DNA of 41,286 nt from a virus: IMG/VR virus record IMGVR_UViG_3300027969_000183, positions 1 to 41,286 of that record; one strand, written 5' to 3'. A program made the position numbers and the translations under genes. The notes beneath the pieces were generated by a model. It was not told where the DNA came from. It saw nothing but the letters and a program-made list of their open reading frames with translations, and searched no databases. How positions within the stretch are numbered: the stretch's first letter is position 1; every line of letters starts with the position of its first letter. Shown piece after piece: positions 2,064 to 30,492 of the stretch.

Positions 2064-3815
2064 CTAGGTCCAGGTGGGGACTGAGTTTTGGTTCTGTCTG
2101 ATGTCCCGGAAGGAGGTGCCTAAGACAAGGGCATCTGTGGCTTCCTGTGGGCTGTCCAGAAAGGCGGTGAGCATGACGTTCCAATCGTCCCGTTTGCGGG
2201 CAATCATGGCCTCCTTAGCACTGATGGCTAGGATGTCAAGGAAGTACTTCACACCAAGGGCCAGGGCGTCGGCACGGTCGTCGTGTCTGACGGCTCCTTT
2301 CTCACGACAGAGGCGGGTAAGCTGGTAGGCCAGCATTCGTGGTAGGCGATCCTCTGGTGCCATGTCCTGGTTGCTCTCATAATCCCAGCTGATGAGTCGC
2401 TGGTCAATGATAAGTTTGTGTTGGTTCAGGACAGGCTCCAGGGTGTCAATGATCCGTGCTTCCTTCATGGTGTTGCTACGGACCTCCTCAAAGGACATAC
2501 CAACCTTCATCTCTTGTGCGTGTCTCTTCAGCAGCTCCACCACCATACCATCACCGAAGTTGCTTTCCACCAGGCAGGTGGTAGCACCGTAGTGCTTGGC
2601 ACGGCGTAGGACTTCTCTGAGGGTGGTATCGGAGTAGCCTTCCTGTGATGCGAAGATGTCACGAAGGAAGATGAAGCCGTTGATCTGGCTGAGGATGACT
2701 GCTACGGTTTCGTCCTTCCCTCGGCCTGAGGGGTCCAGGGCCACGATGGTTTCCCCGTAAGGAACGAACTCAGACACGGCCTTGGGTCTGTGCCACTTGT
2801 CACCAGGCAGGGCAACAGCAGGCAGATCCAACACGGTCTCCTTGTCAGCACCCCAGATGATGTCGCTTGGGCCTTTTGCTAGGTCCAAGGGCAGCACGGA
2901 GAAGTCACTCAGCTTCAGAGGAAACTTCAGGGCATCACTGAGGGTGGTGTCAAGTTGGAACTGAAGGGCGAAGTTGCTGCGAGACATGCTGCCTTCGCGC
3001 TCCAGAAGGGTGATCTCTGAGAAGCGGCTGTCGGTTGGTTTCCAGGCTAGGTTCTCAAGACCTTCTTGTTTGATGTCAGCAAGCAGTTCTTTGGCAAGGA
3101 CATCCTCATAGCCCACCATGCTTTTGGGGTAGCGGGCAGGCCATACCATCGGTTTGTACTTACGCTCGTGGAGGGTTTTGTACACCGTGAAGGTTGATTG
3201 AGGAGTTCCAAGAAATAAGATACGGCTATCTTTTTTAGGGGTTAATACTGATTCAAACTCTGTAATAAGTTGAAGCAATTTCTCTCGCATCATATCTGTA
3301 GCTGAATTTGCGGGCGTCTCAATATCGTCGGCTACTATTAAATCAGCACGAGAACCAGTAAGCATACCTGTGATGCCGACACTTTTTACGGATGGAGATT
3401 GAGAAGGTTTACACCCAGTAATATCAAAAGAAACCCGAGACCACCGCATGTCGCCATCAACCGGCCTCATGTGAGCAAGCCAGTCAATTTCAAGAATACA
3501 CCGTTGACAAAAAATAGAAAAATCATCAGCTCGTTGTTTGCTAGCTGATACAACCATAATCTTTTTGTCTTTGTCAACAAAAAGTGTCCACAAAACAAAA
3601 CCAGCAGTTACCCAACTTTTTCCTAATCCACGAAAACACTGAAGCTGAATGCGGTTTCCCCCATGCTGCAAATAGCGAGCCATTGCTAGTTGAGCACGAG
3701 TAGGCTCTGGTAGTTGTAGTGACTTCCACAATAACCTAAGAAATAAACTAAAATCGTTTTTAAGTTTTTGCTCGATCGAGATATGCGATTGCTTTGAGGA
3801 AACGGTTTCGGTCAT
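2064..3815 (-). CDS. Terminase large subunit (T7 gp19-like DNA maturase B)
   Basis: The ATP-driven packaging motor and nuclease, 583 residues from ATG 3815 (T7 gp19 has 586). Motifs in order: Walker A FRGLGKSW (61-68), Walker B LIVADD (159-164), the conserved SPSVKSVGITG and LTGSRAD blocks, then the nuclease part with VALDPSGRGKDE, ESNFGDGM and the last acidic site DDRADALALG. T7 gp19 aligns from just after this start; the frame continues to 3893, but ATG 3818/3815 fits the family. The first 56 bases overlap the end of the HNH gene upstream. The 5' third (about 3200-3815) is strikingly AT-rich compared with the rest: 19 of 60 bases are G/C at 3241-3300 against 38 of 60 at 2701-2760. Confidence 0.97.
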   Translation of the reverse strand: MTETVSSKQSHISIEQKLKNDFSLFLRLLWKSLQLPEPTRAQLAMARYLQHGGNRIQLQCFRGLGKSWVTAGFVLWTLFVDKDKKIMVVSASKQRADDFSIFCQRCILEIDWLAHMRPVDGDMRWSRVSFDITGCKPSQSPSVKSVGITGMLTGSRADLIVADDIETPANSATDMMREKLLQLITEFESVLTPKKDSRILFLGTPQSTFTVYKTLHERKYKPMVWPARYPKSMVGYEDVLAKELLADIKQEGLENLAWKPTDSRFSEITLLEREGSMSRSNFALQFQLDTTLSDALKFPLKLSDFSVLPLDLAKGPSDIIWGADKETVLDLPAVALPGDKWHRPKAVSEFVPYGETIVALDPSGRGKDETVAVILSQINGFIFLRDIFASQEGYSDTTLREVLRRAKHYGATTCLVESNFGDGMVVELLKRHAQEMKVGMSFEEVRSNTMKEARIIDTLEPVLNQHKLIIDQRLISWDYESNQDMAPEDRLPRMLAYQLTRLCREKGAVRHDDRADALALGVKYFLDILAISAKEAMIARKRDDWNVMLTAFLDSPQEATDALVLGTSFRDIRQNQNSVPTWT

Positions 3816-4233
3816 CATTAAATTTTCCAAGAGTTTGATTGCAGTCTCTACAAAGAAGTCCCCGCACTTTGCCAGTTCTGTGGCAGTGGTCAACGGCTAG
3901 CGATTTTCTGGATGCACATACTGTAGTTCCGCAGATGGCACAGCCTCCGCCTTGGGAGGTCAGCATCTGGTCGTAATCTTTGGACGTAATACCAAAATTG
4001 CGTTTTAGGTGACGATTTCTTTCTTTTTCAAGATACTCGTTGTACCTCAGTGGATCCTGCTTGAGACGTTGGTGGTTTTCTTTGCTTCTGACAGACGTAC
4101 ATGTGCGACAATCATAACTCAAATTGTCCCAACGTTGTTTATTTGAGCAAAACTCAGCAAACGGTAGTATTTGTTGACATGTTGGACATTGTTTTGACTC
4201 CAACGAGGATGGGCTGTGAGGCGTTTTGGTCAT
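3760..4233 (-). CDS. HNH endonuclease, endonuclease VII-like
   Basis: A 157-residue protein with an N-terminal CxxC...CxxC zinc site (CPTC at 16-19, CRTC at 42-45). A C-terminal endonuclease VII-type domain follows: GGCAICG, then AVDHCHRTGKVRGLLCRDCN, holding the DH catalytic pair and the second Cys pair. It is paralogous to the HNH gene at 27529-27975, sharing the order QGG-C-IC, VDHCH-TG-RGLLC-CN, LG. Both are probably free-standing homing endonucleases. This one is wedged directly in front of, and overlapping, the terminase gene, whose adjacent third shares its AT-rich composition. ATG at 4233 follows a 77-base gap behind the DUF6321-like gene. Confidence 0.88.
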   Translation of the reverse strand: MTKTPHSPSSLESKQCPTCQQILPFAEFCSNKQRWDNLSYDCRTCTSVRSKENHQRLKQDPLRYNEYLEKERNRHLKRNFGITSKDYDQMLTSQGGGCAICGTTVCASRKSLAVDHCHRTGKVRGLLCRDCNQTLGKFNDDRNRFLKAIAYLDRAKT

Positions 4234-27332: not shown

Positions 27333-27536
27333 TTACGGATTGCGTTTTGACTTGATGTAGCGAATAACAGCAAGGGCTCCAGACATCCGTCCTGCTTCCC
27401 ACGGAGTCATCTCGTGGTCAGGATAGTTGTCTGGATACCTCTGGTCAAGATCCTCAATGAGAAGATCAAGATCCACACGTCCCCCCACCACGTCTGTGAG
27501 GGGAATCTCGGTGGCATCAAAGTAGGAATTAGCCAT
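27333..27536 (-). CDS. Small hypothetical protein
   Basis: 67 residues from ATG 27536, acidic first half and a C-terminal helix (TPWEAGRMSGALAVIRYIKS). The start overlaps the HNH stop by 8 bases, so the HNH gene may have been inserted directly in front of it. Not recognised. Position between RNR beta and the gp7.3-like gene corresponds to the small virion or unknown genes 6.7-7 of T7. Confidence 0.65.
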   Translation of the reverse strand: MANSYFDATEIPLTDVVGGRVDLDLLIEDLDQRYPDNYPDHEMTPWEAGRMSGALAVIRYIKSKRNP

Positions 27537-27975
27537 AATTGTTGAGGTAATCAATAGCAGCTTGTAGGGTTACAGTGGAATCCTTAGCATGACCCAATAG
27601 TAAGTTGCAATGATGACATAACAATCCCCTAATAGTTCCTGTAGAATGGCAGTGATCTACAACAAATTGACCTGAGTTGTGATACGGAGCAGTGCTTTCG
27701 CATATCAAACATTTACCGCCCTGAGAACTAAGCATTTCTTTGTATTGTAACAAACTAATACCGTAGGAACGCTTAAGTTTTTTATCTCTTTCAGCGGTTG
27801 GGCAATAGTTTTCCTTGCGACGTGCCAAAACTGAATCTTGATTCTTCTCATAGGAATTCGCAGCAGCAGCCTTATGGCAGGACTTACACTTGCGTTGGTA
27901 GCCTCGTTTAGTGCGAGCCTCTTTGTAGAAATCTGATTCTGGAAAGCTCTGTAAGCAAGAATAACAATCAAGCAT
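27529..27975 (-). CDS. HNH endonuclease, endonuclease VII-like
   Basis: 148 residues. N-terminal zinc site (CYSC at 4-7, CKSC at 30-33), a basic linker, then the endonuclease VII domain: YGISLLQYKEMLSSQGGKCL, CE..., VVDHCHSTGTIRGLLCHHCN and LLGHAKDS. The catalytic DH pair and four Cys are present. It is a paralogue of 3760-4233 with the same domain order. AT-richer than the RNR genes beside it. It lies between RNR beta and a small gene, touching both (6-base gap, 8-base overlap), as free-standing homing endonucleases often do next to RNR genes. Confidence 0.88.
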   Translation of the reverse strand: MLDCYSCLQSFPESDFYKEARTKRGYQRKCKSCHKAAAANSYEKNQDSVLARRKENYCPTAERDKKLKRSYGISLLQYKEMLSSQGGKCLICESTAPYHNSGQFVVDHCHSTGTIRGLLCHHCNLLLGHAKDSTVTLQAAIDYLNNYG

Positions 27976-27983
27976 AGTAAACG

Positions 27984-28715
27984 TCAGCCGTATTGAGGTA
28001 AGTCAACATTGCTTGCCTCAAAAAAACAGGGCATCCTTGCACGTTGTGTGTCAGAAAGACCAGGGGCCTTGCCACGTTCGTACAGGGAATCAGACTGGCT
28101 GATCCAGAAGTCCTTGCTGAGGTACTTGTTGGTGGTACTGGTAAGACCATCCATCATCCATCCAACAGTAGCACGGCGTAATCGGTTAAGGCTTTGCGTT
28201 GACCGCAGGCCAAGCTCGGAGCAGACCATGCTATGAATAGCGACGTGGGTTTGCTCATCTCGGCTGATGTCTGCTGCTGTGGTTCGTACTCCGATGTCTC
28301 CGTTGAATCGGTAGAAGGGCAGTAGAACAAAGAAAACACTCCTCTCAAGAATAGCTGCCTTAAGGATCGGATGTTCCGGTGCCTCAAGCCAGGTCCTTAG
28401 GATGTGACTTCCTTCTGCCTCTGCTTTTGGATCAGAACCATGAGCAGCGACAACATAACGGAAGGCCTGGTCATGGCGTTCTTCATCTTGGATGTTTGAG
28501 GTAAGAGCCTCAACAACACCAGCAGTCTTGGGAAGTTCCTTTTCAAGACCCTGCCGAAGGAAATCAGCGACAGGCAACTCCAGATGACGCAGAGCAAGAG
28601 CACGAAAGAAGGCATCTTCGGAACCAGAAACTAGGTCACCCTTGCGAACGGCAACTGGCGTCCACTTGCGTTTGCGAAAGATGACCTGATCATAGGGCGA
28701 AACGGTAGTTGTCAT
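27984..28715 (-). CDS. nrdB: Ribonucleotide reductase beta-like subunit (class I, ferritin-like)
   Basis: 243 residues, shorter than the usual 320-400. The ferritin-like metal ligands can be traced: E46 in LELPVA, E78xxH81 in QDEERHD, E124 in LERSVF and E154xxH157 in SRDEQTHVAIH. In E. coli NrdB the radical Tyr lies four residues after the first ExxH; here that position is Phe85, so a classical tyrosyl radical is not expected. A class Ic-like or other tyrosine-free cofactor is possible. It pairs with the alpha subunit two genes upstream. I recall that the RNR of the cyanopodovirus P-SSP7 was reannotated from class II to class I with a similar small beta gene. ATG 28715 overlaps the preceding stop (ATGA). 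Confidence 0.8.
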   Translation of the reverse strand: MTTTVSPYDQVIFRKRKWTPVAVRKGDLVSGSEDAFFRALALRHLELPVADFLRQGLEKELPKTAGVVEALTSNIQDEERHDQAFRYVVAAHGSDPKAEAEGSHILRTWLEAPEHPILKAAILERSVFFVLLPFYRFNGDIGVRTTAADISRDEQTHVAIHSMVCSELGLRSTQSLNRLRRATVGWMMDGLTSTTNKYLSKDFWISQSDSLYERGKAPGLSDTQRARMPCFFEASNVDLPQYG

Positions 28716-29086
28716 TTTCCGTACAATTTGGCTTGATCTTCATGAAGACGTATGGCAGCAGCCTCAGCATCTTTTAATGTTTTATGAATACCTAAGTGTT
28801 CTTTGGTGTTGTAATACGCTTCCCTAACCATCTGTTCACCCTTTCGTCCATCAGGTACCTTGAAGTATTTTCCATTTTTATCCTTGATGACTCCAGGAGC
28901 ATTCACCCAAGGACTATTGGGATTGTTTTCATCAAGTGGAAATGTATGTGTAAATACAGTGCTGTATGATCCATCAGGATTTCTAACCTTTGGTCGTTTC
29001 TGTAAATCAATGTTTCCTGGGGTAATCAGAGATTGATTGATTTTAAGATTAGGTTTTGTTGGTACTGGAATGTTGAGGTTTGGCAT
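28712..29086 (-). CDS. Unknown protein with a module known from phage virion proteins
   Basis: 124 residues from ATG 29086, with GGAG of the RNR 3' end as Shine-Dalgarno. The region IDLQKRPKVRNPDGSYSTV, then PGVIKDKNGKYFKVPDGRKG and the ending HKTLKDAEAAAIRLHEDQAK resembles a module (L..RP.V.NPDGS.STV ... GKHLG.F....A..YA..LH..Q) that I know from large internal virion proteins and stand-alone proteins of podoviruses. Function unknown. It is AT-rich compared with both RNR genes and separates the two subunits, so it may be a later insertion. Confidence 0.7.
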   Translation of the reverse strand: MPNLNIPVPTKPNLKINQSLITPGNIDLQKRPKVRNPDGSYSTVFTHTFPLDENNPNSPWVNAPGVIKDKNGKYFKVPDGRKGEQMVREAYYNTKEHLGIHKTLKDAEAAAIRLHEDQAKLYGK

Positions 29087-29088
29087 GA

Positions 29089-30492
29089 CTATTCTCCACA
29101 GGGAATACAACGATCATCAGACGGAGGGACTTCCTCAAGAGGATCCTCATCAAACTTGAAGAACTCATGAAACTCCTCATCAAGGGCAGTCATCGCATCA
29201 TCCTTGGCTTGCACATCAGGCATCACCTGAAGGGAATAGTAAAGCGACGTTTGTGGCGAGTTGAGCCACTTTTGAATGAACGATTCGTCGTAGGTGACGA
29301 CATCACTCCAGCTGTTGTAGGAGTAGCCATGGAATAACATGGTGTTGCGGAACAGCGATACCATACCATCCACCACCTTGTTGTAGGTTTCCCAGCCAAC
29401 CTCAGCAGCAATCTCCATATCAGGAGGATACTGGTAGGCATCAACACCGAAGGTGCCGCTGTCACGATCCACGTTGCGTGAGATGGGTGGGGCAATCTCA
29501 GGAGCTGTGGTGTAGCCCCTCAGATCCACGTTGTTGTAGGAGCAGGAGGCAGTAGGGGCAATGGCAAAGGCACGGACCATACCGGCCTTACGGGCGATGA
29601 TGGCAGCCTTCTCAATGCCTAGTGCCAGCTGAGATACCAGGCGATAGGCAGTGGTGTTTGTTGGTGAATTGCCTAGGTACAATTCTAGGGCATCACCAAA
29701 CTGTTCATAAGTGATGTGGTGGTAGGCAAGGAAGTTTGCCAGACCCAACACACCGAGACCAACCTGACGGTCAAACTCAGGTGTCAGATACTCACCAGTA
29801 TCACCAACACCAGTCTTGCCGTGAAGAAGAACCAGGCTGGTCATGCCCTCCTCAAAGGCCCCTACGATGTTGTCCTTGGTGCAAGCACCTAGGTTCACAT
29901 GCTGAAGCAGGCAGGTACCACGGCTCTTCAGATACACCTCCAGACAGACGTTGCCATAGATCCGCTGGTGATTGCTGTCGCAGCGAATCTTGTTCAGCCA
30001 GATGTCACCACGCTTGATGCCTTCAATGGTGGCAGCAATCAGTTCAGTACTGGCAACGAATAGGAAGGAGTCGTCAACATCCAGGCAACGCTTCACCCAA
30101 GGCAGTTCTGCCCGGCTGGCATTAACAAACTCAAGAGCATCAGGATGATCGTAATCCAGGTGGATCACAACCGCCCCATTCTTGTAATGACCACCCCTAC
30201 GAAGGGTCTCGTTGAGGGTGGAATAGATCTTGGCAAAGGAGACTGGACCGGAAGCCGTCAGGCCCTTTCCATTCTCATCACCTTTGGGACGTAGGTTGCT
30301 GAGGTGAACAGCAACACCAGCACCATTGCGGAGGGCATGGGAAACAAAGCGCCAAGACGATTCAATTCCATCAAGTCCCTCCATACTATCCTGAACCACA
30401 AACACTGTGCAAGACACAGGAAGTCGGGAAGTAGGATCCGTGATCCAGTTTTGAACTCGTCCTGTGCGAGCAATAATGTTCGGCGTTTTCAT
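29089..30492 (-). CDS. nrdA: Ribonucleotide reductase alpha subunit, small class I type
   Basis: 467 residues, much shorter than cellular NrdA (about 760), without an ATP-cone. It converts ribonucleotides to deoxyribonucleotides. Active-site residues are visible: C28 and C194 as the redox pair, N181-x-C183-x-E185 as the thiyl/Asn/Glu triad (NVCLE), PTASCS as the phosphate loop, and a C-terminal CIPC (462-465) for re-reduction. A Tyr-Tyr pair at 418-419 (TSLYYSLQ) matches the E. coli Y730-Y731 dyad that relays the radical from NrdB, which argues for class I and against a B12-dependent class II enzyme. The beta-like gene is two genes downstream. Confidence 0.9.
   Translation of the reverse strand: MKTPNIIARTGRVQNWITDPTSRLPVSCTVFVVQDSMEGLDGIESSWRFVSHALRNGAGVAVHLSNLRPKGDENGKGLTASGPVSFAKIYSTLNETLRRGGHYKNGAVVIHLDYDHPDALEFVNASRAELPWVKRCLDVDDSFLFVASTELIAATIEGIKRGDIWLNKIRCDSNHQRIYGNVCLEVYLKSRGTCLLQHVNLGACTKDNIVGAFEEGMTSLVLLHGKTGVGDTGEYLTPEFDRQVGLGVLGLANFLAYHHITYEQFGDALELYLGNSPTNTTAYRLVSQLALGIEKAAIIARKAGMVRAFAIAPTASCSYNNVDLRGYTTAPEIAPPISRNVDRDSGTFGVDAYQYPPDMEIAAEVGWETYNKVVDGMVSLFRNTMLFHGYSYNSWSDVVTYDESFIQKWLNSPQTSLYYSLQVMPDVQAKDDAMTALDEEFHEFFKFDEDPLEEVPPSDDRCIPCGE

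Follow-up and report, generated by a model that had tools for sequence, protein, structure and literature searches.

A putative class Ø ribonucleotide reductase with phenylalanine at the radical-tyrosine site, encoded by a virus with the gene layout of T7-like cyanophages

The window analyzed here is the whole virus record IMGVR_UViG_3300027969_000183, a stretch of 41,286 bases. According to the list of open reading frames (ORFs), both subunit genes of a ribonucleotide reductase (RNR) reside on its minus strand, the alpha gene lying 5′ of the beta gene, with another ORF between them:

29089..30492, minus strand: RNR catalytic subunit alpha (class Ø / Cyano SP), 467 aa, assigned by ORF, Pfam and phmmer
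28712..29086, minus strand: inserted ORF of 124 aa between alpha and beta, recognized by gene spacing, GC content and similarity
27984..28715, minus strand: RNR radical-generating subunit beta (R2-like, class Ø), 243 aa, assigned by ORF, PHROG and fold

The first-pass annotation had placed alpha and beta within 27984-30492, and both ORFs were confirmed there, on the minus strand; the 124-aa ORF was missing from its account of the locus. In the gene annotation of the record, the RNR genes are flanked by two blocks, one for replication (RNA polymerase, primase-helicase, DNA polymerase, exonuclease and MazG-like proteins) and one for structural proteins (head-tail adaptor, head assembly protein and major head protein). 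Terminase, thymidylate synthase and endolysin are encoded at the far end. This layout matches that of T7-like cyanophages, e.g. P-SSP7; psbA was not found in the record. The phage also harbors two separate endonuclease VII-like genes (27529-27975 and 3760-4233, minus strand). Members of the thioredoxin, glutaredoxin and NrdI families gave no match in the record, which is possibly incomplete, so that the absence of these helper genes carries little weight.

The alpha protein matched the PF02867 barrel of Pfam (1.4e-21) and, with residues 5-467, chain A of 7URG (phmmer, 7e-199), the cryo-EM alpha structure of Synechococcus phage S-CBP4 (Burnim et al. 2022, PMC9531940). Across residues 6-437 it is 69% identical to S-CBP4 alpha. 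An ATP cone was not detected by Pfam in its 467 aa, and the protein has the size typical of class Ø / Cyano SP (minimal, about 412-470 aa, without ATP cone). The following sites were located in the gene:

29944..29946, minus strand: codon of Cys183, the predicted thiyl-radical cysteine, by conservation and match to C185 of S-CBP4
29236..29241, minus strand: codons of Tyr418-Tyr419, the predicted radical-transfer dyad, in the context TSL-Y418-Y419-SLQ
29098..29109, minus strand: CIPC, Cys462-Cys465, CXXC reduction motif at the C terminus

Cys183, Cys28 and Cys194 correspond to C185, C30 and C196 of S-CBP4, Cys28 and Cys194 forming the redox pair, and in 7URG the counterparts of Tyr418-Tyr419 (Y420-Y421) form a stack adjoining the catalytic Cys (PMC9531940). 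The Tyr-Tyr relay (Tyr418-419), the thiyl triad (Cys28/183/194) and the C-terminal CIPC (Cys462-465), which had been read from the letters of the sequence before, are all present. Cys183 was kept in 130/130 alpha relatives, as was the first Tyr of the dyad; the second Tyr was found in 129 of them, the remaining one having an X. The C-terminal ends were of the CXXC type in 126 and of the CXC type in 12 of 139 relatives.

The best model score of alpha was obtained with the class II model NrdJ_Z (9.7e-21), and the P-SSP7 alpha still carries an nrdJ class II label, which bears out the earlier remark that such RNRs have been annotated as class II. Both points would suit a B12-dependent class II reductase accompanied by a ferritin-like gene with some other role. 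We consider this very improbable: the class II scores lie far under the NCBI cut-offs, and the YY dyad, kept in practically all alpha relatives, stacks in 7URG by the catalytic Cys at the site which in class II is the adenosyl pocket (PMC9531940). Furthermore, in most of 139 loci alpha is adjoined by a beta gene with invariant metal ligands and a C-terminal Tyr.

By PHROG, the beta protein was assigned at 2e-111 to family 6799, 'ribonucleotide reductase class Ia beta subunit'. Proteins sharing 49-64% identity with it came from 55 records (Prochlorococcus, Synechococcus and uncultured marine phages), and a protein of Microcystis phage Mic1 shared 33%. Neither a Pfam or NCBIfam match nor a significant sequence match in the PDB was obtained. 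The first PDB fold matches of its AlphaFold2 model (pLDDT 84) were RNR R2 chains, the Mn/Fe NrdB of C. trachomatis being among the matches; other ferritin-like enzymes ranked after the R2 chains. The residues discussed below are encoded as follows:

28662..28664, minus strand: codon of Trp18, at the position of E. coli Trp48, aligned to the NrdB Trp in FFWRPEEV
28578..28580, minus strand: codon of Glu46, predicted metal ligand, in 293/293 relatives, E42 of P-SSP7 (PMC6370689)
28473..28484, minus strand: first ExxH, Glu78-Glu79-Arg80-His81, Glu78 and His81 in 293/293
28461..28463, minus strand: codon of Phe85, at the E. coli Tyr122 site of the NrdB/NrdF alignment
28344..28346, minus strand: codon of Glu124, predicted metal ligand, in 293/293, E117 of P-SSP7 (PMC6370689)
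28311..28313, minus strand: codon of Tyr135, found in every Phe85 relative
28245..28256, minus strand: second ExxH, Glu154-Gln155-Thr156-His157, Glu154 and His157 in 293/293
27990..27992, minus strand: codon of Tyr242, C-terminal Tyr with the presumed role of E. coli Tyr356, Y239 in PMC9531940

Phe85 lies four residues past His81 in the radical-Tyr column of the alignment with E. coli NrdB and NrdF, and is followed two residues later by Tyr87. The ORF and this alignment confirmed what had been proposed initially, a pair of ExxH motifs with Phe85 standing at the position of E. coli Tyr122; the radical Tyr at His+4, by which classes Ia and Ib are recognized, is replaced. A local match of the beta profile to E. 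coli NrdB by hhalign was meaningless and was discarded, so the register was taken from the ExxH+4 spacing, the multiple alignment and the fold match. A third ExxH at residues 101-104 occurs by chance. Glu124 aligns with Glu204 of E. coli NrdB, and Asp153 directly precedes the second ExxH. The ligand set E46, E78, H81, E124, E154 and H157 with D77 and D153 in the second sphere is the pattern of class Ø / Cyano SP; the first ligand position is Glu in Ic, Id and Cyano SP and Asp in Ia and Ib (PMC6370689). As in this group, the protein ends one residue past its last Tyr (...LPQ-Y242-G243, stop). Its length of 243 aa is indeed well below normal size, as had been pointed out, which agrees with the sequence, the 293 relatives and the literature (PMC6370689, PMC9531940).

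Viral contigs, genome contigs and phage records supplied 293 distinct full-length beta sequences, in which conservation was surveyed. Glu46, Glu78, His81, Glu124, Glu154, His157, Asp77, Asp153, Phe128 and Phe129 were invariant (293/293). Trp18 was found in 292/292 relatives, and Trp186 was invariant as well. Tyr242, present in all 290 proteins with complete ends, is the sole strictly invariant tyrosine. Thus, a storage tyrosine near the metals is not conserved, whereas the residues carrying the radical to alpha are. Site 85 was occupied by Leu in 250 proteins, by Phe in 43 and by Tyr in none; hence the usual residue of the family is Leu rather than Phe. E. coli NrdB possesses another tyrosine close to the cluster, Tyr209, which aligns with the invariant Phe129. 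On the basis of these alignments, the conservation speaks against another Tyr serving near the metals. Since the alpha dyad, Cys183 and the six beta ligands are conserved across the relatives, the observed motifs are not due to chance. The survey limits the residues open to any mechanism to Trp18, Asp153, Tyr242 and the six ligands, with no conserved Tyr at the metals.

The same data bear on the question of whether beta is a reductase subunit at all. An aldehyde-deformylating oxygenase and R2lox also match the beta model, and beta is devoid of an R2 Pfam match, as might be expected of an R2-like oxidase or another ferritin-like protein. However, RNR R2 chains were the top fold matches, the invariance of Trp18, Asp153 and Tyr242 is what a radical chain would demand, and beta is constantly linked to alpha. 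That the protein is something other than a reductase subunit is therefore highly unlikely.

Within the beta family, site 85 varies together with residue 135. All 43 Phe85 proteins have Tyr135, and in the Leu85 proteins this residue is Phe (199), Asn (35), Tyr (10), Leu (5) or Met (1). Column 135 was the one best coupled to site 85 among the 293 proteins (phi 0.88; next column, 0.58). According to the tree, Phe85 has a small number of separate origins, Tyr135 being present each time, and the Leu85/Tyr135 relatives adjoining the clade of the window look like an intermediate state. When tested against the phylogeny, the coupling had roughly three independent, supported pairs; these all pointed the same way and are too few for significance. 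A tyrosyl radical might be used after all in this lineage, on a relocated Tyr such as Tyr135, with its about three independent joint changes, or Tyr87, which is present in 271 of the 293 relatives. We regard this as improbable. Family-wide, residue 135 is mostly Phe or Asn, also Leu or Met, and Tyr87 is replaced by Phe, Leu, Met or Asn in 22 proteins; because both positions vary across the family, neither tyrosine is required for the reaction. Moreover, residue 135 is located 11 residues past Glu124 on one helix, i.e. approximately 16 Å away as estimated by helix geometry, and is probably too far off for metal contact, and the three Phe85/Tyr135 pairs fall short of significance. The plain reading of the coupling is packing between neighboring side chains. 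It is unlikely, though conceivable, that in the Phe85 lineages Tyr135 is a redox-active second-layer tyrosine tuning or briefly holding the radical, in which case the cofactor site of class Ø would come in two forms, one with Leu85/Phe135 and the other with Phe85/Tyr135. The analysis singles out these two residues as a variable pair of class Ø beta.

The 124-aa ORF begins 2 bases past the alpha stop codon; its end and the beta start overlap in an ATGA. It has a GC content of 38%, versus 51-52%. Structural and 'IVP-C-like' proteins of phages share 33-37% identity with it, and it is apparently akin to a domain found in virion or internal virion proteins of phages. The ORF was absent at the alpha-beta junction in all relatives examined. 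In all complete operons of PMC9531940 the ferritin-like gene lies directly downstream of alpha; here the 124-aa ORF interrupts this adjacency, with order and strand kept. A gap of more than 300 bases between alpha and beta was observed in 7 of the 139 loci (the window, L009, L102, L121, L139, L146 and L060), so that adjacency is not a strict criterion of class Ø. The gap amounts to 12 kb in Mic1 (L060). The ORFs within the gaps differ between loci: inspected by eye, L009 and L121 each carry an endonuclease VII-like ORF, and L146 has one resembling a 2OG-oxygenase. Insertions seem to recur at the alpha-beta junction.

Matches in the GTDB resided mostly on short MAG contigs, and three contigs inspected (L143, L153, L155) revealed phage-like neighbors (DNA polymerase A or head-tail connector). 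The Limnothrix and Calothrix relatives have neighbors of the chromosomal type. Class Ø beta occurred in Limnothrix and one other of 291 sampled cyanobacterial genomes (L157, L400, L401); the Limnothrix beta is accompanied by alpha and adjoins a cobalamin-independent methionine synthase gene. In Calothrix membranacea, a class Ø-like beta gene (L152:7872-8717) lies beside genes for a NACHT protein and a histidine kinase; a whole-genome search did not disclose an alpha relative, and no plasmid with a relative of the Calothrix beta was found.

Taken together, we think it likely that the phage encodes its own oxygen-dependent RNR of the Cyano SP / class Ø type, with a metal-cluster oxidant and a radical route via Trp18, Tyr242 and the YY dyad. 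On its ferritin-like helical core, beta has six carboxylate/His ligands for a two-metal site and no conserved tyrosine beside the metals. In sequence, Trp18 - Asp153/His81 - Tyr242 match the radical-transfer chain of class I R2, and alpha retains the receiving Tyr419-Tyr418 dyad, Cys183 and the pairs Cys28/Cys194 and Cys462/Cys465. Oxygen or superoxide would oxidize the beta metals to a high-valent cluster, the stored oxidant, and the electron would travel from Cys183 via Tyr418, Tyr419, the subunit interface, Tyr242 and Trp18 to the metals. Re-reduction may be accomplished by thioredoxin or glutaredoxin; as the record has no match to these families or to NrdI, the host is the expected source of reductant. 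Points against this scheme are the lack of a Pfam match and of a significant PDB sequence match for beta, and a beta C terminus that does not have the extension by which class I beta binds alpha (PMC9531940).

The initial proposal that catalysis starts without a tyrosyl radical was supported by the sequence, the 293 relatives and two published studies (PMC6370689, PMC9531940). The oxidant is probably a metal-centered, Mn-containing cluster. Glu46 in place of Asp together with the absence of a Tyr at the site constitutes a resemblance to class Ic, and our guess is that Mn/Fe (as in Ic) or Mn2 (as in Id) is more likely than Fe2. Of the suggestion that such enzymes use other cofactors, for example the Mn/Fe of class Ic, the tyrosine-free class I-like chemistry held up, but Ic serves only as an analogy, since metal-ligand pattern and trees place Cyano SP outside this subclass (PMC6370689).

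Sequence comparison assigns the pair to the clade 'Cyano II / Cyano SP', i.e. class (clade) Ø, as a new member with minor variations. Harrison et al. reclassified the P-SSP7 enzyme, formerly class II, as class I, identified its missing beta, described the lack of the Tyr and the ligands E,E,H,E,E,H plus second-sphere D,D, and in 2019 proposed Cyano SP as subclass If (PMC6370689). Burnim et al. renamed the clade class Ø in 2022, proposing it to be ancestral to classes I and II, and described its ferritin-like proteins as about 240 residues long, with a C-terminal Tyr and with the Tyr site occupied by Phe or Leu (PMC9531940). The group still awaits biochemical characterization (2026 preprint PMC12918982; also PMC9531940). 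The missing Tyr, the small beta, the YY dyad and the class II mis-annotation are thus all already published for the family; the absence of the Tyr has been on record since 2019 and Phe/Leu at the site since 2022, so this observation is not new. Our analysis makes two small additions to the descriptions in the cited papers, the co-occurrence of Phe85 and Tyr135 and the insertion point at the junction. The enzyme of this phage is ordinary within the class Ø family, whose interest lies in its proposed ancestral position relative to the RNRs of classes I and II.

Compared with known systems, the enzyme shares with S-CBP4 an alpha of about 470 aa without ATP cone, the YY dyad and the Cys triad, beta being about 240 aa in the family. 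It differs from S-CBP4 by the alpha end (CXXC, CIPC, instead of CXC), by Phe85 and Tyr135 in beta instead of Leu and Phe, and by the 124-aa ORF between the two genes. With P-SSP7 it has in common the ligands E,E,H,E,E,H and D,D, the missing Tyr and a former class II annotation, whereas P-SSP7 beta, 52% identical to the protein studied here, has Leu at the Tyr site. The class Ic NrdB of C. trachomatis likewise has Glu as first ligand (PMC6370689) and Phe in place of the radical Tyr, in a Phe-x-Tyr layout (ExxHTHTFLY, ExxHDQAFRY here); it matched the beta model by fold, its sequence match was not significant (E 0.55), and the beta protein of the window is about 100 residues shorter. Finally, the class Ia NrdB of E. 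coli has the same six-ligand dimetal site, and its Trp48/Asp237 chain positions align, but identity is 17%, its Tyr122 is replaced by Phe85 and its first ligand Asp by Glu46.
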